Of a stretch of DNA of 64,000 nucleotides, positions 6,892-39,883 are shown one piece after another. This DNA is from Pacificitalea manganoxidans (GTDB lineage: Bacteria; Pseudomonadota; Alphaproteobacteria; Rhodobacterales; Rhodobacteraceae): assembly GCF_002504165.1 (NCBI RefSeq), contig NZ_CP021404.1, positions 1,302,001-1,366,000 of the forward strand. The letters are read 5' to 3'. Made by a program: the position numbers and the translations under genes. The notes under the pieces were generated by a model. It was not told the origin of the DNA. It saw only the letters and a program-made list of their open reading frames with translations, and searched no databases. Position 1 is the first letter of the stretch. Every line of letters starts with the position of its first letter.

Positions 6892-6912
6892 GCGGCCCGA
6901 ACGCCGCGCGCC

Positions 6913-7449: not shown

Positions 7450-7487
7450 CCTGCCCCCGCACTCGCCCGCGATGGGGGTGGCACCGC

Positions 7488-8393: not shown

Positions 8394-8567
8394 GGCGGCC
8401 TCCCCTCCAAATCACGCAACGCCAGCGGGCGCGATACCGCAACCATAACCAATATGCATCGCAATGGTAGAAAATAGTATTTCCAGTTATTCGCGCATCT
8501 CTGTAGCGTGAAGATCGGGAAGATTGCCATGCGCCGGAGGGGGTGCAGGGCGGAGGGAGGATGTTTC

Positions 8568-10043
8568 GTGCCGACATTGCACAAGCCTAATATTTTGTTG
8601 CTCTGCACCAGCCAGCAACGGTTCGACAGTCTTGGCTGTTACGGCAACACGCAGGCCGTGACGCCCTGTCTGGACGGGTTGGCCGAAAGCGGCGCAAAAT
8701 TCGCGGCCTGCTATGTCCAGAGCACTGAAAGCAGCCCGTCGCGCGCGGCGCTGTTCACCGGGAAATACCCGCGCAATCATGGCCTGTGGGCCAATGGCGT
8801 GGCGCTTCCGGCCTATCAGGACATGTTCACCCGCGCGCTGGCCGATGCGGGCTATGACTGCGGATTGATCGGCAGGCAGCATCTATCGAGCTGCGATGAC
8901 GCCGCGACCGAAGCACGCCGGGACAATGACGGGTATCGCGTCTTTGACTGGTCCCACGGTCCCCGGCACAGATCGCGGCAGAATGCCTATCACGAATGGC
9001 TCCGCCAGAAGGCGCCGGAGGTCTACGCGCAAATTTTCCCGTGGAACGCGCGCGGGCGGAATGCCGATGCCGGGCCGTCAGAGACCCTGAACCACCCCAT
9101 CGATACCGTCGCGCCGGAACTGCATTATTCGCATTGGGTCGCCGAACGCGCGATCGCGTTCATCGGGACCGAGCGCGCGGAAAACGAGCCCTTCTTTCTA
9201 ATCGCGAATTTCTCTGACCCGCAGGGCCCGTTCGGCGCGCCGGACACATACCGCGCCCAGATCGACGCCGATGCACTTGCACCGCCCAAAGGCACCGGCA
9301 CGGCCGAAAAGCGCCCCGGCAACGCCCGCGCCAATGCCGGACAGGATGCCCATGCGCCGGACGCAGGCACCATCGCCGCCGATGATCCCCGTGAAATGCA
9401 GGCGCAATACCTTGCGATGGTGGCGCAGATCGATGCCGAGGTGGCGCGCATCCTCGCCGCGCTCGACGCCAGCGGTCAGGCCGAGGATACGCTGGTCATC
9501 TTCACCTCCGATCATGGGGAAATGCTGGGCGATCATAACGCCCGCCAGAACGGCCCGATGATGAACGAAGGCGCGACGCGGGTGCCCTTGATCCTGCGCT
9601 GGCCGGGGCGCGTGCCGCCGCGCACGGACCTGCCCGATCTGGTGCAGACCATCGACATCACCGCCACCGTTCTGGAGGCCGCCGGGATCACACGGTTCGC
9701 GGGCCAGCAGGGGCAATCGCTGCTGCCGCTGATCGACGGCACGGCGACGGGGCGCGGCTGGGCTTTCTGCGAATACCGGACCGCCGGACCACGCGCGGCG
9801 CCGCCGGTTTCGACCACGATGCTGCGCCGGGGCGACGTGAAACTGATCGTCTGGCATGGCCGCCCGGCAACGACATGGGACGCCGATGGCGAGCTTTACG
9901 ATCTGGCCAATGACCCCGATGAAACCCGCAACCTGTTTCACAGCGCAGAATGCGACGATCTGCGCGAAGCCATGATGGACAGCCTGATCGACGTTTTGTG
10001 CAGCATCGAGGATCAGACACGCCCGAGGGTCGCGAAATGGTAA
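8568..10043 (+). CDS. Sulfatase-family protein with degenerate active site
   Basis: The 491-residue product aligns along its whole length with the second sulfatase in this operon. The GTG at 8568 was chosen because an AGGGAGG Shine-Dalgarno sequence lies 7 nt upstream. It lacks a signal peptide, so it is cytoplasmic. Key residues differ from the intact paralogue: the metal Asp is Ser (CTSQQR), the formylglycine Cys is Ser (SSPSRAALFTG), the Lys before QHL is Arg, and the Lys of LKGPM is Asn. The second metal site DHGEMLGDH remains. It may be a pseudoenzyme, or a Ser-type sulfatase with altered chemistry. Confidence 0.8.
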   Translation: MPTLHKPNILLLCTSQQRFDSLGCYGNTQAVTPCLDGLAESGAKFAACYVQSTESSPSRAALFTGKYPRNHGLWANGVALPAYQDMFTRALADAGYDCGLIGRQHLSSCDDAATEARRDNDGYRVFDWSHGPRHRSRQNAYHEWLRQKAPEVYAQIFPWNARGRNADAGPSETLNHPIDTVAPELHYSHWVAERAIAFIGTERAENEPFFLIANFSDPQGPFGAPDTYRAQIDADALAPPKGTGTAEKRPGNARANAGQDAHAPDAGTIAADDPREMQAQYLAMVAQIDAEVARILAALDASGQAEDTLVIFTSDHGEMLGDHNARQNGPMMNEGATRVPLILRWPGRVPPRTDLPDLVQTIDITATVLEAAGITRFAGQQGQSLLPLIDGTATGRGWAFCEYRTAGPRAAPPVSTTMLRRGDVKLIVWHGRPATTWDADGELYDLANDPDETRNLFHSAECDDLREAMMDSLIDVLCSIEDQTRPRVAKW

Positions 10044-26600: not shown

Positions 26601-26655
26601 CGGCAGTTGCAGCCTTTGCCGTTGCGGCCTGAAAGGGTTTCGATCTTGCGCTCAT
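23647..26655 (-). CDS. SNF2-like superfamily 2 helicase, defence operon
   Basis: The 1002-residue product has Walker A DEVGLGKT (residues 33-40), a Walker B-like IFDEFQCY, motif III LLLSATPYRFY, and the C-terminal helicase block TTSVGQEGLDFHSWCDRLGH followed by QREGRVQRFGG. It is an SF2 translocase of the RapA/SNF2-like group with a long middle insertion. Its start overlaps the PLD gene stop by 4 nt, and the PLD gene overlaps the DUF6361-like gene the same way, implying one complex. From memory, a helicase, a PLD protein and a DUF6361-like protein resemble the Azaca anti-phage system; this needs a search. Confidence 0.85.
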   Translation of the reverse strand: MSARSKPFQAATAKAATAALSGGNALRRFLVADEVGLGKTVVARDTLAALASKARKFTVYYITSGLKVADQNKVELLRFLDKDDAKDALSIIDRVGLIPFEEKRKGKLRLYAFTPTTSFSSSQRLYGGKAVERAFIKLLLDELYPGLTAAFPEGYIEYGATSGWPWACEEAQGKFDNVSARFKAAYGRALRTEFGKPARENILHAIDTSKHGQSLGRMRKALAQAALDSAPPDLVIFDEFQCYRELLNAGADNPLARQLLAGTDGGTPPPILLLSATPYRFYAERWESGAGVAPHVEFFEIIEFLGGAAVRAEAESQFRRFGDLLHLIGHLPPDTRTAAIEEAQALKHHLEALLTPLMSRTERPVSDLAGKPAPPSVRIEPHDLDVYRHFTDHVSPKFAGSAIAYWLSVPLPAQALGDRYQISRKIDFPATRSVPRLAITNCFKPPKEGWGSAKLRALNSLVPTEALALPWVLPSLTWWAPSGPWAKVTQSPKMLIFSRFRATPQSLAALVSLEVERKCVAKSNVPYAAAWKKRHLNPKPNQGPTLALFHPSPFLIRAVDPLDVKGKAAIKQIRAKARQQIIRALPPSIAPEAPNARSNRRRKPAWAILAAIEHALKAPLAREFAAVQKSWGRVAPKDTTLQTLLKQRQEAEAITWLSRWELDALVDMALGAPGVVTGRALYRHLPELFDYQEQHFARLVRFCWTRLRTYLDRPVFWSILPGEDATQKYQDACVDGCLEAVLDEHFWLRKSKVNPDGLIEDLSAALAANVGNFGFKGAKKKDKIRIRCHAAVPFGGTETETHWQDHDVNEPPPARSEEIRSAFNTPFWPHVLATTSVGQEGLDFHSWCDRLGHWDLCSSPVDLEQREGRVQRFGGLTVRQPLARKLGEQALAQVRGQASSPWDVIARDADQAFSDDKTGLSPWWAMEGAELKRHLFALPQSRDIDRFAKLRTQRLLYRLALGQPDQEDLVDLLTHHDEETTRSLQALTLDLSAISRQENLDE

Positions 26656-28457
26656 GAGGCAAGCCGGGAGCGCGCGATGGCCCAGATCTGAGCGAGTTCG
26701 TTCAAATCAGCTCTCTCCGCTTCGCTCAGATTATCGCCGTGGGCGAGAAGCGCATCCACATAGGGCGCAAAATGGCGATCGACCCGGCCGAAGGCTTTTC
26801 GGTCGCGTGCCCAAGCCGTGAGAATATCCTCCAATGTGAGGCGGTCATAACCCAGGCTTTGGGGGCGGTTGCCCCGCGATCCGACATCTTCATCCCATGC
26901 ACCGCCACCGACCGGAAGCGTGTCGCCGCCGAGCATCGCACGCATCCAGTCATGAAACGCGCGAAGTCCCATGTGGCTGGCCAGCGCGGCTAGATCCCGC
27001 TGCTCTTTGAGAGGCGGATCGACGGTGACGCGCTGCATCCATCGTAAAGCGCCGTCTGGGCCGCTTATCCGGACCTGAATGAAGGCAGACTGGAGTGACA
27101 TCGGGATCGATCCAAGACCGAGGCTGAAGGCATCGGTTGGCCAAGGCAGCAGGTCGCCATTTGCAGATCCCGCGTGCAACACATGGTCAGGGTCGGCGAG
27201 CGAAGGTACCGCCTGCGCGTCGATAGAGAAGCATTCCCCATCGCGGCGCAGAACCGGGTCCCAGGAGGCCATGAGCACCTTGCGCGACTCTTCCAGAGCA
27301 TCGGCCGCACTTGTGCTGCGCAGATCTGTGTCTGCGAGTTCCTCTATGGTGACAGGCGTCGCTTTACCAACCAGGAACGTCAGGCCGGAAGCGAACGCTT
27401 CGTCTGCCTCGAGTTCGACCATGATTTCCGAGTTGCGCCCCGACCACGCCCTTTCGGTCGCATTGGCGCTCCCGACCCTCAAGATGGTCTTCTCTCCCGA
27501 GTGGAAGCAAAAGATCTTCGCATGAAGCGCAAGGGGCGCCGGCTCCATATCATCTTCGGCCGCAGGCTCTGTGCCGGGCAGAGCGAGCGTGGACTCGTCA
27601 GCAATCACGTCCGGCGCCGCATAGGCCAGGATTTTCGAGAAACCCGTCAGCGAAGTTCTGGACCGGCTGGCTATTTCGGCAAGAGCCGGCATCGACGAAA
27701 TCAGCGTCCTGGAACCAGCCGCCCCCCAGTTGCCCGCCTTTTTCAGAAAGTTGGGCGACAGGAACGGGCTGATGATCGTTATGCCATCGACCGCGCCGGA
27801 TGGCGGCTCCGCTAGCAAGGGAACACCTTCATCCAGCCCATTGAGGAGGCCGCGTAGGCGAAAACCGTCTGGCGCATTCCACCAGATCGTCTCCAGTTGC
27901 TCCGAAATGTCATCGGCATCCTCGCGCGATGCGCAGCGAGCGAGCGTGCGCCCGAGAGCACCGACGCCAGGGAGCCTAACCCGCCCCTTCGCGCGCTTTT
28001 CGCTGCCGTCCAGCAAAACGCCGGCGTCGAGATCCTTAGATCGCGTGAGGTTCCGGCTGCCAATCCAGAGCTTCCAGCGGGTTTCCCCTTTGGGGCAGTT
28101 ATAGGCAACCAAAGCAATCTTGGGATGCCAGCTACGCTCGTGTTCATCGTAGGGTTGCTCAACGATGAACTGATCGAGGATGCCCGCGATCCGGGGGAGA
28201 GCGACCGGGCGCGCGATCCGCCCGCGCTGGATGATGATCTTGACGTGATCGCGCAGCCTGTCGATCGCTTCGGCAAAATCGACGGCTGTTCCACTGCCCT
28301 TGTCATTGTTACGACCAATCAGGGCGAGCAACGCCGCGGCGACCGCAGACAGGTCGACCGAGTAGGTCGCGAAAAACGCGAGCTTGACCGTCTCCAATCG
28401 CCCGGGCCGCAGTTCGTCGAGGTAGGGTTGGCCGTGCCAAGCTTGCCGATCGCTCAT
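26652..28457 (-). CDS. Phospholipase D-like protein, defence operon
   Basis: The 601-residue product carries two HxK half-sites of the PLD fold: WHPKIALVAY with GSRNLT (about residues 110-136) and LHAKIFCF with GSANATERAW (about residue 315 on). Both look complete, so it should form one active PLD site, in defence contexts usually a nuclease. The C-terminal 250 residues have no recognised motif. It overlaps both neighbours by 4 nt and is the middle gene of the trio. Confidence 0.85.
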   Translation of the reverse strand: MSDRQAWHGQPYLDELRPGRLETVKLAFFATYSVDLSAVAAALLALIGRNNDKGSGTAVDFAEAIDRLRDHVKIIIQRGRIARPVALPRIAGILDQFIVEQPYDEHERSWHPKIALVAYNCPKGETRWKLWIGSRNLTRSKDLDAGVLLDGSEKRAKGRVRLPGVGALGRTLARCASREDADDISEQLETIWWNAPDGFRLRGLLNGLDEGVPLLAEPPSGAVDGITIISPFLSPNFLKKAGNWGAAGSRTLISSMPALAEIASRSRTSLTGFSKILAYAAPDVIADESTLALPGTEPAAEDDMEPAPLALHAKIFCFHSGEKTILRVGSANATERAWSGRNSEIMVELEADEAFASGLTFLVGKATPVTIEELADTDLRSTSAADALEESRKVLMASWDPVLRRDGECFSIDAQAVPSLADPDHVLHAGSANGDLLPWPTDAFSLGLGSIPMSLQSAFIQVRISGPDGALRWMQRVTVDPPLKEQRDLAALASHMGLRAFHDWMRAMLGGDTLPVGGGAWDEDVGSRGNRPQSLGYDRLTLEDILTAWARDRKAFGRVDRHFAPYVDALLAHGDNLSEAERADLNELAQIWAIARSRLAS

Positions 28458-29686
28458 GCAACAGCTTCCAGATCACGCAGGAGCCGTTTCACATTCCCCC
28501 AGCGATAATGGAGCGGCTCGGCGCGACCATGGCGCTCGCCTTGCCATTCCATGCGCCGATCGACGCCGAACTGGTTGCTGGCGAGACGCGCGCGATCATC
28601 CTTCCTACTGACCTCCGCCCGCGCATAGACGTCGAGCAGCGGCATCGGATCCTTGCTATTTGCCCGAACCCAGGCCGACGTTCCTTGCAAGACGCCCTCA
28701 ACCGCAGGCGGGAGGTGCCCGATTTCGGTGAGAAACATGTCCATATCCAGCCGAGCGGCCATCCCGCCCCATTGCTCGACCGCGTCTTTCAGCGCGGCTC
28801 GGTGCAAATTTGGCTGTGGTCGCTTGTCGCGTGTTTCCTTGAGTGTCTCGACCTGAGCCGCATAAATTGCCCTGCCAATCGCGGACAGCGCCGCCGCCTG
28901 GCCGGCCCGCTTCAGCATGGCGGTCTCCTTGCCAGCAAGTGCGAGAATTTCGCTGTCCCAGCAGTGATCCGCCTCGCCGAGCGGCTTTCCGACCAGCTTC
29001 GACAAGAGCGATGGCTCGCCCGGATCAGTCGGCGAGCGAACGGCGCGCAGCTTGGTTGCGAGATAGATCTGCTCCGGCGGCAAAAGGTCGAGTGTAAGCT
29101 TTCCTCCGCCATTCCAGTCGCCGGGGGCATCGATCAACCCAGAGATTGGCCAGGCCACTGTCTCGAAGGGCTTGCCGTCATCGTCATGCAGGGCGCGTTT
29201 GCCGGAAGCAGCCAACAGCTTCGCCATATCCGGGCGGCTCCACGGCCGGCCATCAGGGCGGGTGCCGATCAGTCCCCATTTAGCGAGAGCCGTCCAATAA
29301 ACATAGGCTGGTGGCTGGCTGATCACGCGGGGGAAGACTTCACCTCCGATCACGCCATCTTTTTCACCGCCCACTCCATCGACATATTTGAGACGGCCGG
29401 TCAGCTCATGTTCGAGATCGGAGAAGGCTTGGCCAAAGTCCTTGGGAACCGGGCGCTTCGTTCGAAGGCTTTGGTAAAGCCAGGGGATGAGAAGCGCGTA
29501 GCGCAGCCGAGTGTGCAGAACCGACGTTCCGGGGAAGAAGTGATCAGCATAGCGCTGGTGGACGATGAGGAATCCGACCTCATCGCGCACGCCCGCTGCG
29601 CCGCCGAACATCATCTGTTCAGCCTGGCCCAACGCCTTGCGCGACAAAAAGGTGAACCCAAAAGATGACACGAAGTCTGCCCCCAC
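28454..29686 (-). CDS. DUF6361-like protein, defence operon
   Basis: The 410-residue product begins MGADFVSSFGFTFLSRKALG and contains VRDEVGFLIVHQRYADHFFPGTSVLHTR (quoted in part: FFPGTSVLHTRLRYALLIPW), which resembles DUF6361 proteins found in defence islands. No catalytic motif is apparent. It overlaps the PLD gene by 4 nt and follows the large helicase by 49 nt. A role as a sensor or structural subunit of the helicase-PLD complex is a guess. Confidence 0.7.
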   Translation of the reverse strand: MGADFVSSFGFTFLSRKALGQAEQMMFGGAAGVRDEVGFLIVHQRYADHFFPGTSVLHTRLRYALLIPWLYQSLRTKRPVPKDFGQAFSDLEHELTGRLKYVDGVGGEKDGVIGGEVFPRVISQPPAYVYWTALAKWGLIGTRPDGRPWSRPDMAKLLAASGKRALHDDDGKPFETVAWPISGLIDAPGDWNGGGKLTLDLLPPEQIYLATKLRAVRSPTDPGEPSLLSKLVGKPLGEADHCWDSEILALAGKETAMLKRAGQAAALSAIGRAIYAAQVETLKETRDKRPQPNLHRAALKDAVEQWGGMAARLDMDMFLTEIGHLPPAVEGVLQGTSAWVRANSKDPMPLLDVYARAEVSRKDDRARLASNQFGVDRRMEWQGERHGRAEPLHYRWGNVKRLLRDLEAVA

Positions 29687-29735: not shown

Positions 29736-32700
29736 TCATGCACTACCATTAATTTTTAACCTGCTTGCGCGGGTTTCGAGCAAATAGGTCTCAACTCCCG
29801 CAAGCAGGTGCAAGCCTTCTTCACCGATTGCTTGCCGGGATAATCCAGGTTGCACGATGCGGACGTCGAACTCGAAGCGGTGATCTTGCCACCCGACCTT
29901 GAGTTTTTTGATCGCGGCGGCTGAACCCTGTTCAATCCGAGAACTGAGGCCACGGTCCCGGCGCATCTTTTCGCGCCTCAATATGTGTTGAAGCATGCGG
30001 CCTGGCCGGTCGCGCCACCGAGCAGACTTCTGAGCCTGGCCGCAAACCTCGTAGAGGTCGCTGAGCCGCGCACCCGGTGTATCCGCCCCTGAATACTTGC
30101 AGTGATACAGAGTCACGGAAACGACGCTGTCGGTTATTCGCAGCACCACGACATCAGCGATCTCGCCTTTGCCATCATCGTCGAAGATCACATCATAGGG
30201 ATCGGGGTCCGCCAACAGCGTGTCGATGATGAGACGTTGGACTGAGTCTGGGCGCTTGCTCGTGCCTTGCGACTCGACGCGGATATTGGCCTTCGACCAA
30301 TCCCAGGCTTCGATCTTGTTGGATGGGTATGGCTCGATCGTTTCGCCTTCGGGCAGGGTGTAGAGGTGGCTGTAGATGAGCAACGAGCCATCGCCGAAGT
30401 CGATCTGTGGCGAATCCTCACCGAAGGATTCCGAAAGCGTCTGCATCTTGCTGCCTATCTTAATCGTCGCCTTGGGGCCGGCGCGCTGTGGGTAGCGGGC
30501 ATGCCCATCGCTAAAGATGATCTCGAATTCGGCCGTGTGGTCATCGCTCCGCACGGCGAAGCGCAACGGTCCGGAACGAGCGTTATCGAGCAACTCGATA
30601 TCGCATTCCGCGAAGGTTACGGGCTCATCGCCGAACAAGATTTCGATCCGCTCCTCGAACTGCGTGATCAAAGATTCAGGCCAATGGATCGCCACGGGCG
30701 GAACAGCCGGGCGCTGGCTGATCTGGTGGGGCCGCATCGCGCTCTTGAAGACGCCGTCGGTCGTGATGCTGGGATCGTTCACCGTGCGGCCGACTTCCTG
30801 GCACCAGTCCACCCAGTCGGTCAGGTCATGGACCTTGGCGCTGGACCAGAACTTGCCCTTCGCCGAGCAGCCGCGTGAAGCCGGTACGCCGTCGAGAAAG
30901 CCGGTGGCGAAAATGTTGTTCTTGATCCGCGACTGGGATTTTGCGCTGTCGAGGCCGTCGGCGACGTCCACGCCCATATACATTGAATAGCGGACGCCGC
31001 GCCCCTGATGGTGGGTGAGGCCGAGATTACGCAGGATGAGCCGCTTGAAACCGTGGAGGCTGCGGAACACCTCCTCGCCTTCCACGCGGCGTGTCGTATC
31101 GCCGCAAACCGCCTTTGCCAGGCGGTCGAACGGTCCCTTGGCGGAACTGCTGATATAGAGCAGGCCACTGGCCTGATCCCAATGGAGCATGTGCAGATCC
31201 CAGGTGACGTTCACTGCCTGCTGCGCCGAGGTCCAGCGCACCTGTTCCTCCGCCCGAGTCACGAAGATCGCGACCCGTTGATGCGGGTTCAGTTTCATGC
31301 CGAGATAGACGCCGGAATTGTAGAGTTCCTCCGTGCGGAACGGATCCCAGGCGTCACAGGACGTTCGGTAGAGGACCGCGTTCATTTTCGGCTCGAGGGT
31401 CTGGAGCGGAATGTCGCTTAGATCCCCCGAAAAGCCTTTGAACATCTCGGCGCGGCGAACCTGGCGTTCGATCTTTGCCGAACTGAGCGCCTCCACCAGC
31501 GCGTTCCAGTCGGCGTCCTCGGCGTAGAGCTTGGCCAGCGCGCGATCGACATCGTCGATGCCGGTATTGGCGATCACCGTCGCATCACCCAGGGCCAGAT
31601 CCTGGCGGGTGAAGCGGCCGACGAACTGAATCGTTACCGCCACGCTCTTATGATGATCGTGCAATGCAGCGATCTTCAGCTCGGGCAGGTCGAAGCCCTC
31701 GCCGAGCATATCGACGCATACGATGATCCGGCTCTCAAAGCGGCGTAGCGCTGCCAGATTTTCGCGCCGCTCCTTCAGCGATTGCTGGCTGTGGACGATG
31801 ACAGGCCGGTAGTCCGGATAGAGGCTATGCGGGTGTTTGGCGCGTTCGATGGTGCTGCAACGGGCCATCGCCAGATGGTTGAGGTCGGCGTCTAGGTCTG
31901 AGGCGAGCACATCGCCGAGCTTGTCGATGATCGCCTGGTCGGCGTCGGCTTGATCCAGCCCGAATACGGCCTCGAAGCGGATCGGCTTGAAATAGCCTTC
32001 CTGCTGCGCCTTTTTCAGCGGGTAGGTGTAGATGAACTCCCCATCGACGCGGCCACCATCCTCACGAAACGGGGTGGCGGTGAACTGGATCACCGGAATG
32101 GGCGGCTCGTGCTCGGCGAAGAGCCCGCGAAAGGATTTCCAAGTCCGTGCGCCGATGTGATGCGCCTCGTCGATAAAAAGTGCGGAGGCACGGGCCGCCA
32201 TCCGCTCCTGCACCGGCGCCTCGGCGCGGCCCGCGATCTGCATCGTGGTGACGACGACATTGGCGCTGTCGAAGATTTCTTCGACTTCGGCTTCGCTCGC
32301 CGGAATGTGCGAGAGGCGCATGACCAACGGGAAGGCCGCGGTCTCATCGAGACATTTCTGCTGTTTCAGGACGCCGAAGGTCTCGAACTTGCCTGCGATC
32401 TGCTCGCGTAGAGCATCGGTGGGGACCACCACCAGCAGGCGCTCGAACCGCCGGTTGGCATTGAGCGCCAGCATAGTCTCGGTCTTGCCCGTACCCGTCG
32501 GCATCACGATGGTTGCCGGGTCCGTCGATCGCGTTGCATGGGCAAGCGCGGCGTGAAGCGCGCCGATCTGAGGCCGCCGCAGGCCAGGCTGCGCTGGTAC
32601 ACCATCGGCCGCAGCCCGTCCTTCGCGCAACTGAATGGCGTCGATCCAGGAGGCAGAAACCGCCTGGAGCCGCTCGACGCGCGCGGAACGATCGAGTGTG

Positions 32701-33065
32701 TCGATGCCGATCGGCAAAGCATTCATCCACCGGCCTGCACCCAGTTCGAGTGCTTCGACGATCTGTTCCGGCTCCGTTGATCCGGGCACGAGCAGAATGA
32801 GATCGGCCTCCAGCGGCGTGGCCGTCTTTGCGCTGATGACCTTGAGAATTTCGCCGGATTCCAGGGTTGTCTCGTAACCATTGACGCGGCGGATGGCGAA
32901 GGAACGAAGCCGGCAACGCACCCGGCGCGCAGGAACGGCCAACTGACGAACCGGGCTCCCCAGCACCTTGCCGTCGATGACAAGCCGAGCCGGCAAGAGC
33001 AGTTCGACCTCGGGATTGAAAAGGTCGTCCTGGTTGGGGCCTTTGGAGCGCGTGCGGGAGGCCAT
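29736..33065 (-). CDS. DEAD/DEAH-box helicase with nuclease-like C-terminal region
   Basis: The 1109-residue product starts at MASRTRSKG. Helicase motifs: Walker A MPTGTGKTETM (about residue 195), DEAH box FIDEAHHIGART, motif III QFTATPFRED, and motif VI-like IQFVGRFTRQD with DMLGEGFDLP before it, resembling type I/III restriction helicases. Near the C-terminus, DDDGKGEIADVVVLR followed by VTLYHCKYSG fits a PD-(D/E)xK nuclease spacing. It lies 14 nt downstream of the truncated abiEii frame, so it may share that promoter. The open frame extends 48 codons upstream; the chosen Met avoids overlap with the toxin remnant. Confidence 0.82.
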   Translation of the reverse strand: MASRTRSKGPNQDDLFNPEVELLLPARLVIDGKVLGSPVRQLAVPARRVRCRLRSFAIRRVNGYETTLESGEILKVISAKTATPLEADLILLVPGSTEPEQIVEALELGAGRWMNALPIGIDTLDRSARVERLQAVSASWIDAIQLREGRAAADGVPAQPGLRRPQIGALHAALAHATRSTDPATIVMPTGTGKTETMLALNANRRFERLLVVVPTDALREQIAGKFETFGVLKQQKCLDETAAFPLVMRLSHIPASEAEVEEIFDSANVVVTTMQIAGRAEAPVQERMAARASALFIDEAHHIGARTWKSFRGLFAEHEPPIPVIQFTATPFREDGGRVDGEFIYTYPLKKAQQEGYFKPIRFEAVFGLDQADADQAIIDKLGDVLASDLDADLNHLAMARCSTIERAKHPHSLYPDYRPVIVHSQQSLKERRENLAALRRFESRIIVCVDMLGEGFDLPELKIAALHDHHKSVAVTIQFVGRFTRQDLALGDATVIANTGIDDVDRALAKLYAEDADWNALVEALSSAKIERQVRRAEMFKGFSGDLSDIPLQTLEPKMNAVLYRTSCDAWDPFRTEELYNSGVYLGMKLNPHQRVAIFVTRAEEQVRWTSAQQAVNVTWDLHMLHWDQASGLLYISSSAKGPFDRLAKAVCGDTTRRVEGEEVFRSLHGFKRLILRNLGLTHHQGRGVRYSMYMGVDVADGLDSAKSQSRIKNNIFATGFLDGVPASRGCSAKGKFWSSAKVHDLTDWVDWCQEVGRTVNDPSITTDGVFKSAMRPHQISQRPAVPPVAIHWPESLITQFEERIEILFGDEPVTFAECDIELLDNARSGPLRFAVRSDDHTAEFEIIFSDGHARYPQRAGPKATIKIGSKMQTLSESFGEDSPQIDFGDGSLLIYSHLYTLPEGETIEPYPSNKIEAWDWSKANIRVESQGTSKRPDSVQRLIIDTLLADPDPYDVIFDDDGKGEIADVVVLRITDSVVSVTLYHCKYSGADTPGARLSDLYEVCGQAQKSARWRDRPGRMLQHILRREKMRRDRGLSSRIEQGSAAAIKKLKVGWQDHRFEFDVRIVQPGLSRQAIGEEGLHLLAGVETYLLETRASRLKINGSA

Positions 33066-33079
33066 CGAGTCGCCCTCCG

Positions 33080-33274
33080 TCAGACCGACACGGTCTGCGG
33101 CGAAAGCGAGACGGCAATCACCGTTCCCCTCGTCATCAGCGCGATCAGTCCGCGCTCGGCGCCCGTCATTTTCAGATAGGCGCTCAGGTGCAATGGCCGC
33201 CCGGAGCAATCTGCAGCTACGGCCAGGGCCTCCTTGCGTTCTGCAGACGACAACGACAGGAAGGGCTCAGACAT
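33080..33274 (-). pseudogene. Truncated AbiEii-type toxin start
   Basis: The first 30 or so residues (MSEPFLSLSSAERKEALAVA...) match the start of AbiEii nucleotidyltransferase toxins, which are normally about 280-330 residues. Here the frame leaves similarity after SGRPLHL and stops at 64 residues, with the nucleotidyltransferase core absent. It overlaps the antitoxin stop by 8 nt, the normal arrangement for abiE, so the toxin body was deleted downstream. Confidence 0.7.
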
Positions 33275-33860
33275 GCGCCGCCTTTCCGACACTGCGTGCA
33301 AGCCAGGTCGGGAACTGCGGTGCGGCGGTTACCAATTCGTTAAACGCCGCTGCGGGCAGTTTCTGCTTCAGCGATCTGAGCGCGGATTCCGCCTGCTCCG
33401 GCCCGAGCCAGACCAGGGCGCGAGCAGCACTGCCTGCCGGCCGCTTCTCCAAGGCAAGCTGCCACCGGGGGGCGTGGCGCAGTTCCACGAGTTGTTTGCC
33501 CAGTGAGAGCGTGCGGCTGCGACCCGAGGTCAGGTACACGAATCGAACAGGCACTTGCGTAGTCAGGCCGAGTGCATTCGCTTCGGCGGCGCCGGTTGGA
33601 ACGATGACTTCGCCACGTTGCGCCGCGAGGGCCTCGACAGCCTGTTCCACGGACGGCAAGCGCGTTCCAAACCGGCTTTTGATTGGTCGCAGGTAAACCC
33701 CGCGTCCGGCACGGATCAACTGGCCACGCTCGGCGAGGCGCGACAGGGCCTGGTCCACACCGGCACGGCTGCCGAGGTGAAGCAGGCCCTTTGCAGCCAG
33801 TGGCGCTCCTTCCGGAAGTCCCTCTGCGTGGGTCAATATCTGTTCGGCAAGGCGTTGCAT
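33267..33860 (-). CDS. AbiEi-like antitoxin/repressor (DUF6088 family)
   Basis: The 197-residue product has an N-terminal winged-helix region (VDQALSRLAERGQLIRAGRG, then VYLRP) and the DUF6088-type C-terminal part with EVIVPTGAAEANALGLTTQV and SGRSRTLSLGKQLVELRHAP. AbiEi proteins are antitoxins that also repress their own promoter by binding inverted repeats. A perfect 10-bp inverted repeat and a sigma70-like promoter lie immediately upstream. Its partner toxin is only a fragment, so here it may act purely as a regulator. Confidence 0.82.
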   Translation of the reverse strand: MQRLAEQILTHAEGLPEGAPLAAKGLLHLGSRAGVDQALSRLAERGQLIRAGRGVYLRPIKSRFGTRLPSVEQAVEALAAQRGEVIVPTGAAEANALGLTTQVPVRFVYLTSGRSRTLSLGKQLVELRHAPRWQLALEKRPAGSAARALVWLGPEQAESALRSLKQKLPAAAFNELVTAAPQFPTWLARSVGKAAHV

Positions 33861-33870
33861 GATCGTTCTC

Positions 33871-33900
33871 TTGTCAGAAACATACGCAGTTTTCTGACAA
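33871..33900. promoter_or_regulatory. AbiEi operator: perfect inverted repeat
   Basis: TTGTCAGAAA and TTTCTGACAA are perfect inverted 10-mers separated by 10 nt, positioned 11 nt upstream of the antitoxin start codon and overlapping the promoter. This matches the inverted-repeat autoregulation described for AbiEi. Confidence 0.8.
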
Positions 33901-33907
33901 AATTCAA
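33879..33907 (-). promoter_or_regulatory. Sigma70-like promoter of the abiEi/defence operon
   Basis: On the minus strand TTGAAT (-35) and TATGTT (-10) are separated by 17 nt, and both fall within or beside the operator arms, so bound AbiEi would block RNA polymerase. Confidence 0.6.
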
Positions 33908-33994
33908 TCCGCGCTGTCGGGCGAGGTGAGAAGGGTGGTCGCTTCTCCCAAGGGTATCAGTCTCGCCTACCGCGATTTTCAGAGGGGAAGATGC

Positions 33995-34258
33995 TTACCG
34001 AACGCCCTGCAGTTGCAGGCATTCCTTGACGGCTGCAGCCCGCCGCTTGTCCAGGTACTCGGCTAGATCGTCGATATGGACGCCTTTGGCGCATTTCTGG
34101 GATGATTCCATGCGGACGAGGGGGAGGGCGATGGAACCAGCCGAGACTTTGCGGATGAACTTGTCGGTACTCAGACCGAAAAAATCCCTGGCGACATCCT
34201 CAGCAGGAATGATCGGTCGCCCGGAATACATCACTATCAAGAGAAACGCCGTGTTCAT
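33995..34258 (-). CDS. PrtN-like (pyocin activator) family protein
   Basis: The 87-residue product begins MNTAFLLIVMYSGRPIIPAE and continues with DKFIRKVSAGSIALPLVRME and KGVHIDDLAEYLDKRRAAA, the PrtN family pattern. PrtN activates pyocin genes in Pseudomonas; in genomic islands similar small proteins appear as putative regulators. The Met at 34258 gives the standard family length; the longer upstream frame is proline-rich and not family-like. Confidence 0.75.
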   Translation of the reverse strand: MNTAFLLIVMYSGRPIIPAEDVARDFFGLSTDKFIRKVSAGSIALPLVRMESSQKCAKGVHIDDLAEYLDKRRAAAVKECLQLQGVR

Positions 34259-34588
34259 GACCCCGGAATGAAACATGATCGCATAGATGGGAGAAGGGCG
34301 CGCAGCCGGTTGTCGGGGAGATGGATAGGATAGAGCGCAAATCGGACGGGAGCGTTGGATCGGGGAGATTATCTGAAGCGTGTGAAGGGGGGTAGGGACC
34401 CCGTGCCTGACTAAGTCGCTCGGGAGCCTCGACGCCAAGCAACGATACTTGGAAGGACGCGACATCAGTGCACCATTTGCGGTGCAGACAACCCGACATA
34501 CCGCTGAGGCGCTGCCACACTGGTGGTGCCGGCAGGAGGAGGGTCATCCAGGCCCGCGGCACCGCCTTGAGGGCCGAACCCTCTGCGC
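34259..34588. other. Intergenic region, no gene recognised
   Basis: The stretch between the PrtN-like and pRiA4b-like genes holds only unconvincing frames. One partial palindrome, GTGCACC...GGTGCAG, near 34473-34492 could be a regulator site. Confidence 0.35.
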
Positions 34589-35206
34589 TTACCGATCAGA
34601 AGACTTTGGCTTGGGCTGATGCAGGCGTCGGCTGGTGTTCTTGCGGAAGGTGTTGCGGAGATCCTTGTTGATCAGGTCGATGTCGAACCAGTCCGGGTCG
34701 AAATGTCCGCCGGCCCAGCGGAGGTTGGAGCTGTGGTCCTCATGGTTTGGATCGCGGATGGTCTCGAGGAAATCGGCATAGGACCAGGGGCCTCCGACGT
34801 CCTCGGGCGGCCGGGCCCGGGCCCCTTCGGTGCATTCTGCGTGGCGGGGCAGGGGATCGAGGGATAGCCACTCCTCGATCCGGATCACATGGGTCCAGTC
34901 ATCGCCAAAGTCGTAGAGGTAAGTGAAGGTCAGATCCTGGCCGGAGAAATCCGCCAGCCTGACCCCGGTGTAGCATAAGGTCTGCGGGCCCCTGAAACCA
35001 TCCTCAAGCTGATCGGGGTCGCCATATCGCAGCCCGCCGAGCCGGAACTCATGCAGATGGCTGTCGGTCCAGCTGAACGCGGCCTGCAGCACCCGATGGA
35101 GCCTATCAAGCGTCCAGTCCGACGGCACGACAAGTCGCCGCCAGATCGGCGGGTCAATCTCTGCCAGCGAGACATGCAGGCGGACGGCATTCGCAGGCTG
35201 GTACAA
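34589..35206 (-). CDS. Plasmid pRiA4b ORF-3-like family protein
   Basis: The 205-residue product has the full family pattern: VRLHVSLAEIDPPIWRRLVV, LDRLHRVLQAAFSWTDSHLH, FTYLYDFGDDWTHVIRIEEW and a C-terminal FDPDWFDIDLIN. The family is common on plasmids, in islands and as a transposon passenger; its biochemical role is not established. It lies 15 nt downstream of the H-NS-like gene on the same strand. Confidence 0.85.
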   Translation of the reverse strand: MYQPANAVRLHVSLAEIDPPIWRRLVVPSDWTLDRLHRVLQAAFSWTDSHLHEFRLGGLRYGDPDQLEDGFRGPQTLCYTGVRLADFSGQDLTFTYLYDFGDDWTHVIRIEEWLSLDPLPRHAECTEGARARPPEDVGGPWSYADFLETIRDPNHEDHSSNLRWAGGHFDPDWFDIDLINKDLRNTFRKNTSRRLHQPKPKSSDR

Positions 35207-35221
35207 GATTGCTTCTCCCGA

Positions 35222-35539
35222 TCAGATCGCAAAATCCCCAAGCGATTTGCCCGCAGCCAGCGCGTCGGCGATCCATGCCGGTTTGCGCCCACGCCCGGAC
35301 CAGGTGATTTCGGCGTTTTCCGGATGGCGGTACTTGGGCGCAGACGCCGCGCGTTTCCGGGAGGGAGCGGCTTCCGCAAGCTCGTCGAAACTGAAACCGA
35401 GTTCGCGGGCCAAGTCGTCAACCTTGGCGCGGGCCTCGGCCTTGCGACGGGCCTCGAAACTGGCGATGGCCTTCGCAACATTCTTTTGCAACTGCTTCAG
35501 CTCGGGGAGCGACAAGGCGTTAAGATCGATATCCGTCAT
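35222..35539 (-). CDS. H-NS family nucleoid-associated protein
   Basis: The 105-residue product has an N-terminal coiled-coil oligomerisation region (LPELKQLQKNVAKAIASFEA) and the C-terminal DNA-binding hallmark YRHPENAEITWSGRGRKPAW. This is the HvrA-like form usual in alphaproteobacteria. Encoded on the island, it could silence the island's own AT-rich genes (inference). It is followed closely by the pRiA4b-like gene. Confidence 0.9.
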   Translation of the reverse strand: MTDIDLNALSLPELKQLQKNVAKAIASFEARRKAEARAKVDDLARELGFSFDELAEAAPSRKRAASAPKYRHPENAEITWSGRGRKPAWIADALAAGKSLGDFAI

Positions 35540-35814
35540 CTGGTCCTCATTTGTTGTCCGGTGGATTTGAGCCCGAGCGCTCTGGAAGGAAGGCGTCTGG
35601 CGCTGGAAAGCAGGTACCGCGGTTGCGTGTCAGATAAGCGCAGATATCCTGGGGATTACAACACGTCGGGGATTGGGGCGCGCGAATGTTGGCTTTTGCC
35701 TTTTTACGCCTGACTCGGCTGAATGTGAGGATTGTCTGGGGGAAAGCCTTCCCCCTCGTAGCCACTGGCGTTGCCGACACACCCCCATCAGCGGGGAGAC
35801 CCCGTAACGCCCCC
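35540..35814. other. Intergenic region between divergent H-NS and ardC
   Basis: No gene was recognised. A small perfect hairpin (GGGGGAA-AGCC-TTCCCCC, 35738-35755) lies midway and could end an opposing transcript. The ardC leader begins at 35815. Confidence 0.4.
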
Positions 35815-35899
35815 TGAGAGTGAAAGTGCGGGCGGGTTTTCCGTGACGGGTTGAGGGCTGGAGGAGAGGCCTCCGGCGCCCGTCGCGGAGATCATCCCG
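35815..35899 (+). promoter_or_regulatory. Shared structured leader, copy 1 (before ardC)
   Basis: This stretch contains CGTGACGGGTTGAGGG, then a GAGAGGC element, then CGGCGCCCGTC and ends at the ardC ATG. GACGGG and CCCGTC can pair as an outer stem around an inner GAGG/CCTC stem. The same architecture recurs before other genes in this block. Confidence 0.6.
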
Positions 35900-36862
35900 A
35901 TGGCCAGAGAGCATCGCGCGGCCCGCAAGAGGGGTCCGCGCACGAACCTTTATGACGACATCACCGACAAGATCATCGCCGAGCTGGAGGAAGGCCGGTT
36001 GCCCTGGGTCCAGCCCTGGGGGACGGCGGCGGTGCAGGTGCCGCTCGCCATGCCGCGCAACGCCAGCACGGGTCGGCAGTATTCCGGGATCAATGTCCTG
36101 ATCCTTTGGGGCGCCGTGATCCAGCAGGGCTATCCAACCCAGCACTGGCTGACCTTCCGCCAGGCGCTGTCGCTCGGCGGCAATGTCCGCAAGGGTGAGC
36201 GCGGCACGACCGTCGTCTATGCCGACCGTTTCACGCCTGAAGACGAGAAGCGCCGCGCCCGGGAGACCGGGGAGGATGCAAACAGCATCCCGTTCCTGAA
36301 GCGCTTCACCGTGTTCAACGCGGCGCAATGCGAGGGTTGGCCTGACGACATCGCCATCGAGGCACCGCCACCGCCGTCCGGGCTGATCAAGCCGCGGGTC
36401 GAGGCATTGATTGCGGCGACCGGCATCGACTTCCGGATCGGTGGCAACCGCGCCTTCTATGTTCCCGCGCTCGATTATGTGCAGGTGCCACCCCCGCAGG
36501 CCTATTTCGAGCCGATTAACTGGCACCGGACCGCCCTGCACGAGATGGGGCACGCGACAGGACATGCCTCCCGGTTGGGGCGGGACTTCTCGGGTAGTTT
36601 CGGCACGAGGAAATATGCCTTCGAGGAGCTGATCGCCGAGATTTCGAGCGCGTTCTGTCGCGCCTCGCTCGGGATCGTCCCGACTGTGGGCCACGCCGAT
36701 TACATCGGCTCCTGGCTGGAGGTGATGCGCGAGGATTCCCGCGCGATCGTCCGCGCCGCCTCGCAGGCCAGCAAGGCGGCCGACTGGCTGCTGGCCCATC
36801 TGCCCGACGACAGTACCGATGTTGAGCGGCAGACCCCGACGGAAGGGAGGGCCGCAGCATGA
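35900..36862 (+). CDS. ArdC-like antirestriction protein (ssDNA-binding + zincin-like domain)
   Basis: The 320-residue product has the ArdC N-terminal domain (TNLYDDITDKIIAELEEGRL, PWVQPW, NASTGRQYSGINVLILWG) that binds single-stranded DNA, and a C-terminal zincin-like domain with ALHEMGHATGHASRLGRDFSG carrying an HExxH-type metal motif and a downstream FEELIAEISSAF. ArdC proteins protect incoming conjugative DNA from restriction. It starts directly after shared leader copy 1. Confidence 0.88.
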   Translation: MAREHRAARKRGPRTNLYDDITDKIIAELEEGRLPWVQPWGTAAVQVPLAMPRNASTGRQYSGINVLILWGAVIQQGYPTQHWLTFRQALSLGGNVRKGERGTTVVYADRFTPEDEKRRARETGEDANSIPFLKRFTVFNAAQCEGWPDDIAIEAPPPPSGLIKPRVEALIAATGIDFRIGGNRAFYVPALDYVQVPPPQAYFEPINWHRTALHEMGHATGHASRLGRDFSGSFGTRKYAFEELIAEISSAFCRASLGIVPTVGHADYIGSWLEVMREDSRAIVRAASQASKAADWLLAHLPDDSTDVERQTPTEGRAAA

Positions 36863-36866
36863 TCCT

Positions 36867-37253
36867 CTGACCGACACACAGCGTGACCGTTTGCTGGCGA
36901 ATGGCCGCGATCGCGATCAGGATCACATTCCGGTCGTGAAGTTCTTCAATCCCTTTGGCGCCGGTGTCTGGCTTGCGACCGAGCTCGACGAGGACGGCGA
37001 CATCATGTTTGGCCTGGCCGACATTGGCTACCCCGAACTTGGCTCCTGGAGCCTCAACGAACTGCGCTCCATTCGGCTGCCCTTCGGCATGGGTATCGAG
37101 CGAGATCTGCTGTTCACGGGGGACTTCCCGATCTCTGTTTGGGCCAAGGCCGCCCGCGAAACCGGCAGGATCCGCGATGCCGAGCGCCTGCTTTATCGCT
37201 CGGGCCGCCTGTCAGGCGGGACACGCGTCGACACGGAGTCCCCGCGTTCCTGA
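36867..37253 (+). CDS. DUF2958 domain protein with disrupted start
   Basis: The product (about 128 residues from 36867) contains VVKFFNPFGAGVWLATELDE and a following DIMFGLADIGYPELGSWSLN, the DUF2958 signature. Family members usually begin MILLT...; here ATGATCCTC at 36859 is followed at once by TGA in its frame, and the body is one nucleotide out of phase. Translation could start at a non-standard CTG (36867), or from an ATG at 36819 inside ardC. A single-base deletion is the simplest explanation. Confidence 0.7.
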   Translation: MTDTQRDRLLANGRDRDQDHIPVVKFFNPFGAGVWLATELDEDGDIMFGLADIGYPELGSWSLNELRSIRLPFGMGIERDLLFTGDFPISVWAKAARETGRIRDAERLLYRSGRLSGGTRVDTESPRS

Positions 37254-37280
37254 GGGTCCTGCAGGTTCCGCGCCGCGCTC

Positions 37281-37362
37281 TTCGAAGGAAGAGGGCGGCG
37301 CTTCTCTCCGTGACGCGGTGAAAGTTCGGCGCCCGGCCGGCTGCCCGTCGGAGAACAGCACC
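37281..37362 (+). promoter_or_regulatory. Divergent relative of the shared leader (before radC-like gene)
   Basis: Contains CCGTGACGCGGTG and CCGGCTGCCCGTCGGAG in the same order as the shared leader, followed by the ATG at 37363. Similarity is weaker than for copies before ardC, parB and 40670. Confidence 0.4.
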
Positions 37363-37851
37363 ATGACACGAAACACGAGAACACCCGCCACTGAAGCGCA
37401 GCCGCTCCGGTTCTCCGCCCAGGAGCAGGCCGTGGTCTACGAGGCCCGGCAGATCCTCCTGCGCCACCTCAATCAGAACCCTGTCCTGACGTCGTGGCAG
37501 GCGGTGCTCGACTATTGCGCCCTCACCATCAGGGGCGATTTGGAGCGCTTCCATGTCCTCTATCTCGACCGCAGGAACCGGCTGATCTCTGACGAGTGCC
37601 TCGCCACCGGCACAGTCGATCATGTCCCGGTCTATCCCCGGGAGGTGCTGCGGCACTGTCTGGCGCTCAATGCCTCGGCGCTGATCATCGTCCACAACCA
37701 TCCGGCCGGTGATCCCGAGCCGTCAGCCGCCGACCTCGCGATGACAAAAGAAATCCGGAACGCCTGTGCGTCCCTGGGCGTGATACTACACGACCACATC
37801 ATCACCGGGGCTGGCCGGGAGACCAGCCTGCGTGCCCGCGGTGAACTCTGA
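37363..37851 (+). CDS. RadC-like JAB domain protein
   Basis: The 162-residue product has the JAB/MPN-type metalloprotease-fold motif LIIVHNHPAGDPEPSAADLA with downstream conserved Asp, and VLYLDRRNRLI before it, typical of RadC-family proteins on plasmids and islands. The function of RadC is unsettled despite its name. The ATG at 37363 is the only in-frame start that avoids overlap with the preceding gene. Confidence 0.88.
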   Translation: MTRNTRTPATEAQPLRFSAQEQAVVYEARQILLRHLNQNPVLTSWQAVLDYCALTIRGDLERFHVLYLDRRNRLISDECLATGTVDHVPVYPREVLRHCLALNASALIIVHNHPAGDPEPSAADLAMTKEIRNACASLGVILHDHIITGAGRETSLRARGEL

Positions 37852-37883
37852 TGGGTCTGCGCGTTCATCCGCGGCGCGGCCAT

Positions 37884-37969
37884 GAGAGGGAAAGGCGTGG
37901 GGGGGAGTTTCGTGACGGGCTGGTTGCCGGAGAGAGAGGCTCCCCGGCGTCCGTCATGGAGACCCTGAC
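37884..37969 (+). promoter_or_regulatory. Shared structured leader, copy 2 (before parB-like gene)
   Basis: Carries CGTGACGGGCTG, GAGAGAGAGGCTC and CGTCCGTCATGGAG in the same order and spacing as copies 1 and 3, ending at the ParB ATG. GACGG pairs with CCGTC, and GCCGG with CCGGC inside. Confidence 0.6.
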
Positions 37970-39883
37970 ATGGCCGCTGCCACGCAGAAGATCACCCTGT
38001 CGTCCTCGCGCGACATCCCCTTCAACAAGCTGGTGCTCAGCCAGTCCAACGTCCGGCGCGTGAAGGCCGGCATCTCGGTCGAAGAACTGGCCGAGTCCAT
38101 CGCCCGCCGCGGGCTGATCCAGTCCCTGCATGTTCGCCCCGAGCTCGACGCCGAAGGGCAGGATACCGGTCTCTTCGAGGTGCCGGCTGGCGGCCGCCGC
38201 TATCGTGCGCTGGAGCTTTTGGTCAAACAGAAGCGCCTCAACAAGACCACTCCGGTGCCCTGTATCGTCTCGGAGGCCAGTGACGACATCCTGATCGACG
38301 AGGTGTCGCTTGCCGAGAACATCGAGCGCGCCCCGCTGCATCCGCTCGACCAGTTCCGCGCCTTCCAGGTCCTTCGTGAGAAGGGCATGAGCGAAGAGGA
38401 AATCGCTGCCGCCTTTTTCGTCAACGCCAAGGTGGTGAAGCAGCGTCTGCGCCTCGTTTCGGTCTCGCCGGCGCTGCTCGATGTCTATGCCGAGGACAGC
38501 ATGACGCTGGAACAGCTCATGGCCTTCACCGTCTCCGACGACCAAGCCCGGCAGGAACAGGTCTGGGAGGCGATCAAGGATGGCTGGCAGAAAGAGCAAT
38601 ACACCATTCGTCGCATGCTGACCGAGACCACGGTGCGCGCTTCCGACAAGCGGGCGCTCTTCGTCGGCATCGAGTCCTATGAGGCGGCGGGCGGCTATGT
38701 GCTGCGCGATCTCTTCCAGCAAGACGATGGCGGCTGGCTCCAGGATCCGGTGCTGCTCGACCGGCTGGTCGGGGAGAAGCTGAAGGCCGAGGCGGAAACT
38801 ATCGCCGCCGAAGGCTGGAAGTGGATCGAGGTCGCGGCGGACTTCCCCTATGGCCATACCAGCGGCATGCGCCGTCTGGCCGGTACCACCATCGACCTGA
38901 CTGACGAGGAACGCGCCGACCGTGAGAAGCTGCGGGACGAGTTCGAGGCGCTGCAGGCGGAGTATGCCGAGGCCGACGAATTGCCCGACGAGGTGGACGC
39001 GCGGCTCGGGGAGATCGAGGAGGCGCTGGAAGCCTTCGAGACCCGGCCGATGCGCTACGACGCCGATCAGATGGCCCGCGCCGGTGTCTTCGTCAGCATC
39101 CGCCATGACGGCCAGCTCGCCGTCGAGCGTGGCTATGTCCACCCCGAAGACGAGGTGGTGGAAGGCCAAGGGAGCGATGGCGCCGATGGTGCATCTGCCG
39201 AAGGCGGTGACGACGGCAGCGTCCGGCGCGCCGTCATCACCGTCGGCAGTGCAGCGCCGGAGACCGACGAGGACGAAGAGGTCGACACCATCCGGCCGCT
39301 GCCCGATCGCCTCGTCAGCGAGTTGACCGCGCATCGCACCCTGGCACTCCGGGATGCCGTGGCGTCCAACCCGCATGTTGCCATGACGGCGCTACTGCAC
39401 CGCCTGAATTCCTTGCCGGCGATGGCGAGGATGAAGACGCCACGGAGGACGAGGAGCAGGCCATGGTCGCTGCCGAATGATGCTCAGGCGGGGTGGCCTT
39501 TGCTGCCCCGCCACATCCCTTCCGTTTCCGCAACTTGCCCGATCCTCGTGACCGGGCTTTTTCTTTGGAGAACCCTGATGCCTGCAACGATCGATATCGA
39601 CCGAATATTCCGTGAGAACCGCGCCAGTCTGCCATCCGAACGCACGCTGCCCTGGGAGGAAACCTGCGACGGCATCACCGTAGTGGTGGAGCCGAAGCCG
39701 CATTGGGCGGACGACATGCGCGCCTTCCGTCTCGAAAGGCGAGAATACTGCCGCTACACCGATTGGGCCGCGAATGGCGGTCATGCCCGGTTCTACGGTC
39801 ATATCGACACCAGCGGCGATGAGGTGATGATGAGAGCGCGCGCGATGATCGCCCGCGAGATTGCCGATGGACTCTGGGACTGA
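37970..39883 (+). CDS. ParB/RepB-like partition protein, C-terminally deleted and fused
   Basis: Residues 1-480 are ParB-like: the N-terminal domain with SQSNVRRVKAGISVEELAES and GGRRYRALELL, a helix-turn-helix region (EEEIAAAFFVNAKVVKQRLR), and the acidic middle part typical of large ICE/plasmid ParBs (normally about 680-710 residues). After VAMTALLHRLN, near 39403, the normal C-terminal region of about 200 residues is missing and the frame changes. The open frame then runs through non-coding sequence into the downstream small gene, giving a 637-residue fusion. The N-terminal part may still bind DNA. Confidence 0.75.
   Translation: MAAATQKITLSSSRDIPFNKLVLSQSNVRRVKAGISVEELAESIARRGLIQSLHVRPELDAEGQDTGLFEVPAGGRRYRALELLVKQKRLNKTTPVPCIVSEASDDILIDEVSLAENIERAPLHPLDQFRAFQVLREKGMSEEEIAAAFFVNAKVVKQRLRLVSVSPALLDVYAEDSMTLEQLMAFTVSDDQARQEQVWEAIKDGWQKEQYTIRRMLTETTVRASDKRALFVGIESYEAAGGYVLRDLFQQDDGGWLQDPVLLDRLVGEKLKAEAETIAAEGWKWIEVAADFPYGHTSGMRRLAGTTIDLTDEERADREKLRDEFEALQAEYAEADELPDEVDARLGEIEEALEAFETRPMRYDADQMARAGVFVSIRHDGQLAVERGYVHPEDEVVEGQGSDGADGASAEGGDDGSVRRAVITVGSAAPETDEDEEVDTIRPLPDRLVSELTAHRTLALRDAVASNPHVAMTALLHRLNSLPAMARMKTPRRTRSRPWSLPNDAQAGWPLLPRHIPSVSATCPILVTGLFLWRTLMPATIDIDRIFRENRASLPSERTLPWEETCDGITVVVEPKPHWADDMRAFRLERREYCRYTDWAANGGHARFYGHIDTSGDEVMMRARAMIAREIADGLWD
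39403..39480 (+). pseudogene. Remnant C-terminus of ParB in a shifted frame
   Basis: In the frame one position off, the DNA reads PEFLAGDGEDEDATEDEEQA to a stop at 39478-39480. This acidic tail is what a full ParB of this type ends with. It marks the right side of an internal deletion whose junction lies at about 39398-39406. Confidence 0.65.
39578..39883 (+). CDS. Small protein of unknown function (nested at the end of the ParB fusion frame)
   Basis: An ATG at 39578, with GGAG about 9 nt upstream, opens a 101-residue product beginning MPATIDIDRIFRENRASLPS and ending ARAMIAREIADGLWD. Its own ribosome site suggests this is an independent gene, read in the same frame as the ParB fusion only because of the upstream deletion. 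The family is not recognised; it seems to belong to the ICE block. Confidence 0.6.
   Translation: MPATIDIDRIFRENRASLPSERTLPWEETCDGITVVVEPKPHWADDMRAFRLERREYCRYTDWAANGGHARFYGHIDTSGDEVMMRARAMIAREIADGLWD

Follow-up and report, generated by a model that had tools for sequence, protein, structure and literature searches.

What becomes of a toxin-antitoxin repressor once its toxin has gone, and can it come to govern a defence operon that is not its own? The question is raised by a window of 64,000 nucleotides (the whole stretch of DNA that was analysed), in which an abiEi antitoxin gene stands at the head of a helicase gene and three defence genes. The initial annotation proposed that the former toxin-antitoxin repressor may now control the genes behind it. 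The head of the operon, read from upstream, comprises the following features.

33995..39883, no strand assigned: mobile-element backbone adjoining abiEi (PrtN-like and pRiA4 ORF3-like by Pfam)
33879..33907, minus strand: abiE promoter-like site, TTGAAT-17 nt-TATGTT (8 of 12 positions to consensus)
33871..33900, no strand assigned: operator, a perfect inverted repeat TTGTCAGAAA-N10-TTTCTGACAA overlapping the -10 (arms 33871-33880 and 33891-33900)
33267..33860, minus strand: abiEi (DUF6088), antitoxin/autorepressor gene, intact, 197 amino acids (open reading frame and profile matches)
33080..33274, minus strand: chimeric 64-codon open reading frame, abiEii codons 1-30 (33274-33185) in frame with the last ~34 addA-like codons (33186-33080)
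33185..33186, no strand assigned: deletion junction, 2 nt (TG) common to both parents (alignments)

The backbone block is 84%–96% identical in L070, the locus with the closest AbiEi relative, and we take its genes to include H-NS-like, ArdC, DUF2958, RadC, and ParB members as well, judging by sequence and by a relative's annotated neighbours. The abiEi gene is intact, as had been claimed, its full 197-residue frame matching the PADLOC AbiEi profile (E = 1.7e-64) and, in Pfam, DUF6088 (3.2e-24) and AbiEi_4 (26.5 bits; cut-off, 25); against the NCBIfam equivalog TAA_AbiEi it scores 22.7, the cut-off being 150. By the PADLOC and Pfam matches, the product is an AbiEi antitoxin of the AbiE system. 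It matches 78 of the 81 columns that are invariant in 28 other close rows, the exceptions being residues 146 and 150 and the last residue, at which other rows end. Its departures from conserved columns (93, 146, and 150) all lie past residue 90, before which the N-terminal DNA-binding part is taken to end, a boundary assumed by analogy. No relative with a solved structure was found by sequence at E ≤ 1.

The perfect 10-bp inverted repeat described earlier is present, with arms of 10 nt and a spacer of 10 nt, and AbiEi is therefore accompanied by the operator at the abiE promoter that belongs to an AbiE system. Its core pattern has one copy in the window, none in 100 shuffles at ≤3 mismatches, and a single copy in the 3.96-Mb genome; a further operator, which would be the sign of a regulon, was not found genome-wide at ≤3 mismatches. 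Among the 41 AbiEi loci of the survey described below, the operator position shows ≥8 of the 10 arm pairs in 37, and the repeat is perfect in 9. The promoter fares less evenly: the site with its 17-nt spacing is real and is the sole 8/12 site on the minus strand across 32991-33960, but its match is weak, and it is absent from a stricter 9-of-12 scan, the consensus used being one that need not fit this host. The pattern TTG...-17-TA...T occurs within 90 nt upstream of abiEi in 27 of the 41 loci, and this conservation within the family is better evidence for a promoter than the consensus score.

The best-described counterpart is AbiE of Streptococcus agalactiae, where AbiEi binds inverted repeats and represses its own promoter, the toxin adding nothing to the effect (PMC3985639). 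The two loci share an AbiEi family protein, a start-proximal promoter, and inverted repeats at that promoter; however, in S. agalactiae the perfect arms measure 11 bp (23 bp in their extended form) and 27 nt separate the perfect stretches, whereas the window has 10-bp arms 10 nt apart that overlap the -10. In the window, moreover, the toxin is gone past codon 30 and defence genes come next.

The short open reading frame behind abiEi had been read as the toxin reduced to 64 codons. Toxin sequence is indeed lost beyond codon 30, but the remaining ~34 codons are those of an addA-like gene, and a plain shortened toxin is ruled out because half of the frame is addA. Positions 33290-33185 align to abiEii of L070 (94 of 106), while 33186-33050 align to the 3′ end of addA in L086 (130 of 137), L120 (129 of 137), and L085 (128 of 137); relatives L095 and L098 were also taken into the junction alignments. 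The frame reads through 30 toxin codons and then the final codons of addA with its own stop, the join being in frame, and for this reason both gene joints are kept, namely the abiEi-toxin overlap and the 14-nt joint between addA and the helicase. The helicase does start 14 nt later, as noted before, with its ATG at 33065 lying 14 nt past the TGA, and the same spacing in relatives marks this gap as native to addA. As a remnant of the AbiEii nucleotidyltransferase toxin, the 30 codons give no family match; an intact abiEii of this family was not found in the genome, which yielded only stub matches to residues 1-31. The 12-mer GCACCTGAGCGC lies both at the window junction (33178-33195) and just past the toxin breakpoint of L083/L084, probably by chance.

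Behind the chimera lie the genes that the initial annotation had placed in a defence operon.

29736..33065, minus strand: ResIII/DEAD helicase (Hel; Pfam ResIII, 8.8e-21), the third gene of an AddB-AddA-Hel set in relatives
28454..29686, minus strand: ZacA (DUF6361; PADLOC ZacA, 2.2e-88)
26652..28457, minus strand: ZacB (PLD-like; PADLOC ZacB, 6.6e-115)
23647..26655, minus strand: ZacC (helicase; PADLOC ZacC, 5.9e-267)

The contiguous ZacABC genes (29686-23647) make up the Azaca system, the gene names being those of the PADLOC models. All three Azaca genes are present in order with strong PADLOC matches; the window differs from Azaca in that a helicase precedes ZacABC and AbiEi stands at the head. 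The native setting of these genes can be read from relatives. A helicase search of genome contigs returned at least 74 loci, and among the matches listed, 12 have ZacA behind the helicase in the same orientation (L085, L086, L087, L088, L089, L090, L091, L099, L107, L115, L120, and L121), with ZacA 87%–98% and the helicase 92%–97% identical. ZacB and ZacC come next as far as the contigs reach, ZacB of L089 being in two pieces. In 7 of these 12 relatives (L085, L088, L089, L090, L091, L107, and L121), a WYL-type regulator is divergent from an AddB-AddA-helicase-ZacABC operon with short joints, and L087 is concordant up to its contig end. The names AddA and AddB were assigned by resemblance: AddB has a PD-(D/E)XK domain, and AddA has UvrD and PD-(D/E)XK domains. 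Pfam and PADLOC both identify the divergent regulator of L085 as a WYL protein, and the regulators of the other full-operon loci resemble it in their first residues; the stretches retrieved for the 7 loci hold no AbiEi match. In the window, the AddB-like and AddA-like genes are missing save for the ~34 addA codons, and AbiEi sits at the operon head in the place of a WYL regulator, although a WYL gene was, we infer from the relatives, once present in this lineage.

The head of the operon is damaged in 4 of the 12 relatives too. In L086, AddA is kept from residue 846 and adjoins the regulator; in L099, AddA is joined to Hel residue 157; in L115, Hel lacks everything before residue 401, and transposase-like genes precede it; and in L120 (Asaia bogorensis GD-01, 6459-9986), the ArdC N-terminal domain is in frame with AddA residue 97, giving a protein of 1175 residues, upstream of helicase-ZacABC and adjoining a divergent abiEi-abiEii pair.

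The reading that we prefer, with a probability of about 0.6, is that of a deletion fusion through which the helicase and ZacABC are transcribed from the abiE promoter under AbiEi, standing in for the WYL regulator. An abiEi-abiEii operon and a WYL-type/AddB-AddA-Hel-ZacABC operon would once have shared one mobile element in the same orientation, until a deletion of ~7 kb or more (larger if the WYL regulator and its neighbours lay in between) removed the rest of abiEii, AddB, and nearly all of AddA, joining abiEii codon 30 to the final ~34 addA codons. The helicase and ZacABC would thereby have been cut off from the regulated promoter that had been theirs and would now be transcribed from that of abiE, translationally coupled and repressed by AbiEi, which would have replaced the WYL regulator by an accident of deletion. 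AbiEi would keep the helicase-ZacABC transcript low, with the transcript rising as AbiEi falls. ZacABC would be the part that is still useful, while a helicase deprived of AddB and AddA would be losing constraint.

A separate promoter directly before the helicase had been named as the finding that would speak against such control. Apart from that of abiE, no promoter-like site at ≥8/12 lies on the minus strand before the helicase, nor is there one before ZacA; the one other minus-strand site in the operon lies within zacC, at 26075. No terminator-like site was found on the minus strand between abiEi and the helicase. The gap between the helicase and ZacA holds weak terminator-like hairpins, in a region no richer in them than shuffled sequence, and an unrecognised promoter of its own may serve ZacABC. 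The lack of a rival promoter-like site, the lack of a terminator-like site ahead of the helicase, and a constraint on ZacABC that is not relaxed together support the fusion operon, as does the finding that AbiE of the same clade heads same-strand defence cargo elsewhere. Control of the defence operon by AbiEi is plausible, as judged from gene anatomy.

Constraint was assessed by setting the changes found in the window lineage alone beside those of five kin, whose totals were summed by hand. For the helicase, columns present in all five kin were used (~708 codons, as L115 is partial), giving 15 nonsynonymous and 21 synonymous changes in the window against 17 and 89 in the kin (p = 0.0025); for ZacABC, the figures are 39 and 94 against 78 and 231 (p = 0.41). 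The helicase thus looks to be under relaxed constraint and ZacABC not, in tests that pool changes from before the deletion with later ones, and relaxation of the helicase is what would be expected with AddA and AddB gone. Between the window and L070, AbiEi has 12 nonsynonymous and 31 synonymous changes over 197 codons (11 and 31 over 196) and the toxin remnant has 8 and 3 (p = 0.012), a contrast that rests on 11 substitutions in the remnant. Omega is 0.05–0.13 for pairs of orphan AbiEi and 0.05–0.12 for toxin-paired ones (leaving aside one near-identical pair, at 0.36). In the L173/L176/L178 group, which has one common junction, the toxin remnants likewise look constrained; most of the divergence may therefore predate toxin loss, and purifying selection on orphan AbiEi is weakened as a proof of function. 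Only the window-L070 contrast between AbiEi and toxin remnant stands.

How common orphan abiEi genes are bears on the main competing account. The survey took in 41 AbiEi loci, made up of the window, 24 places in genomes of the order (~49% identity or more), 10 of 11 further loci (one being left out at a contig end), 5 plasmids hand-chosen from 457 records, and L120. Gene calling relied on a rough in-house script, and L172 was counted as toxin-intact since tblastn gave residues 1-334 in one segment where the reading-frame rule had said lost. After two rows at contig edges were removed, 39 loci were readable, with the toxin intact in 22, frameshifted or interrupted in 3, and lost in 14, the window included. 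On the best AbiEi protein tree the orphan label changes 9 times, and well-supported branches force at least 4 of these changes. The next gene of at least 100 codons lies on the opposite strand in 11 of the 14 orphans; the same-strand cases are the window, L163, and L168. In L070, the nearest relative, homology to the toxin stops at residue 71 and is followed by antisense methyltransferase and helicase genes; in six of the antisense cases, an AbiE-like pair of another type (named by resemblance) begins there. The frequency of orphans and their antisense next genes argue for frequent cargo turnover behind abiEi.

It is accordingly possible, though rather doubtful, that abiEi is the leftover of toxin loss at a spot of cargo exchange, with ZacABC silent or internally driven and AbiEi without a role over it. 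Toxin loss beside an open abiEi in 14 of 39 loci (plus the 3 frameshifted or interrupted), the opposite-strand next gene in 11 of 14 orphans including L070, the repeated changes on the tree, the relaxed helicase, and the damaged operon heads of 4 of the 12 relatives all favour such an account. It sits less well with the intact AbiEi frame, operator, and promoter beside a drifting toxin remnant, with the unrelaxed constraint on ZacABC, and with the lack of any further minus-strand promoter-like site upstream of either the helicase or ZacA. Improbable is a second account, by which solitary AbiEi is kept to neutralise AbiEii of incoming related elements and any effect on the defence operon is incidental. 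Relatives of AbiEi are widespread on plasmids (457 of 72,556 records at E ≤ 1e-5), many of those listed with an annotated AbiEii alongside, and the AbiEi C-terminal domain alone was sufficient for antitoxicity in S. agalactiae (PMC3985639). Residues 93, 146, and 150, however, at which AbiEi departs from conserved columns, lie outside the N-terminal DNA-binding part, the opposite of what this account predicts, albeit in tiny numbers, and the genome is without an intact toxin of this family.

The initial annotation also suggested looking for the same fusion in relatives, and it was found in no other genome examined. Among 390 genomes of the order, AbiEi has a match in 51 (E ≤ 1e-3) and the helicase in 6 (E ≤ 1e-40); both occur in 4 (G000, G099, G100, and G195), on separate contigs except in the window. 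The genus is represented by the window's own genome alone. None of the at least 74 helicase loci, as far as contigs reach, has this AbiEi directly before the helicase; L120 has its divergent abiE beside the ArdC-AddA fusion, and L141 has a distant AbiE pair. None of 128 plasmid records matching a junction query covers 80% of it, and the viral contigs searched lack the exact junction. A conserved AbiEi-helicase fusion is thus ruled out, the fusion being seen once among the genomes, plasmids, and viral contigs examined.

This bears on the parallel that had been drawn with dedicated regulators of other defence systems. BrxR, a WYL repressor, has been experimentally demonstrated to control a defence island via inverted repeats (PMC9122601). 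As in such islands, a repressor gene heads a defence operon on a mobile element in the window, and relatives of the window operon carry a WYL-type regulator; in the window, by contrast, the head lacks the WYL gene and is taken by an unrelated repressor of antitoxin type, whose putative control is suggested by gene anatomy, where that of BrxR was shown by experiment. The parallel is not supported: the 7 intact relatives are headed by a divergent WYL-type gene, and the single occurrence of the fusion, the relaxed helicase, and the commonness of orphan AbiEi (14 of 39) disfavour a dedicated regulator. On present evidence, the locus is a one-off regulator exchange by deletion, within a wider pattern in which AbiE heads defence cargo.

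That pattern is seen where the toxin is intact. A same-strand gene follows abiEii at -4 to +83 nt in 7 of the 22 toxin-intact loci (L019, L020, L022, L120, L164, L165, and L166), of which L019, L020, L022, and L120 were hand-picked outside the two genome samples; the next gene is unreadable in 3 of the 22 (L172, L179, and L181). The first cargo gene was scanned in 6 of the 7 (L022 being left out) and matches PADLOC defence families in 5, as SIR2 in L020, L165, and L166, PDC-S32 in L164, and PDC-M16A in L120; L165 also carries HerA. The first cargo gene of L019 has no PADLOC match, and a SIR2 gene is annotated further along. In Roseovarius sp. THAF9, a DUF6088-AbiEii pair is followed on one strand by a HEPN gene and by a homologue (43%) of the window helicase, and the arrangement in L141 is similar. 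The SIR2-HerA, PDC-S32, and PDC-M16A cassettes of related plasmids and genomes share the AbiEi clade and operator with the window, but their toxin is intact, whereas that of the window is lost.

Tentatively, the alphaproteobacterial abiEi promoter-operator could be a portable head, with cargo plugging in after abiEii (SIR2-HerA, PDC-S32, PDC-M16A, and helicases being examples), after which the toxin would be discardable and AbiEi the sole regulator. If so, the window would be an end state, with WYL swapped for AbiEi by deletion. How defence operons gain and change regulators is little known, and in this exchange, from a WYL-headed to an AbiEi-headed operon, both parents can be named to the base. 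Should AbiEi repress ZacABC, the locus would show the repressor of a toxin-antitoxin pair surviving the loss of its toxin to serve as the switch for a different defence system, an idea that the AbiE-headed SIR2-HerA and PDC cassettes make testable in ordinary strains.

Among the matches listed, the open-access literature held no orphan AbiEi or DUF6088 protein regulating defence genes, and nothing relevant under the names ZacA, ZacB, or ZacC. In related work, an abiEi mutant of Mesorhizobium huakuii showed broad expression changes (PMC8436566), and orphan type IV antitoxins of Klebsiella were mostly rare per group (PMC7192599).

Several further arrangements came to light around these genes. 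In L080, L082, L084, L173, L176, and L178, orphan abiEi retains an intact or near-intact operator, and the AbiE-like pair of another type lies antisense at the toxin site; in L163 and L168, another AbiEi-like gene, distinct from the first, lies behind orphan abiEi in the same orientation, together with a match to AbiEii (37% and 32%). The ArdC-AddA fusion of L120 is another capture of a helicase-ZacABC operon by a backbone gene, and in the same locus (13337-13680), the helicase-ZacA gap has grown to 327 nt, with three repeat copies of period 138 nt. The AddB-AddA-ResIII helicase triad itself recurs near varied defence genes, for example in L085, L088, L091, L105, L111, and L113, and may be an accessory module that has yet to be named; for the AddB-like protein of L085, PADLOC gives no match at 1e-5. 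Its neighbours include HmaA/HmaB/HEC-07 (L086, a triad remnant), BrxB (L113), Shango-like SngB/SngC (L105), and Azaca, and the triad usually adjoins a WYL-type gene, L105 being the exception.
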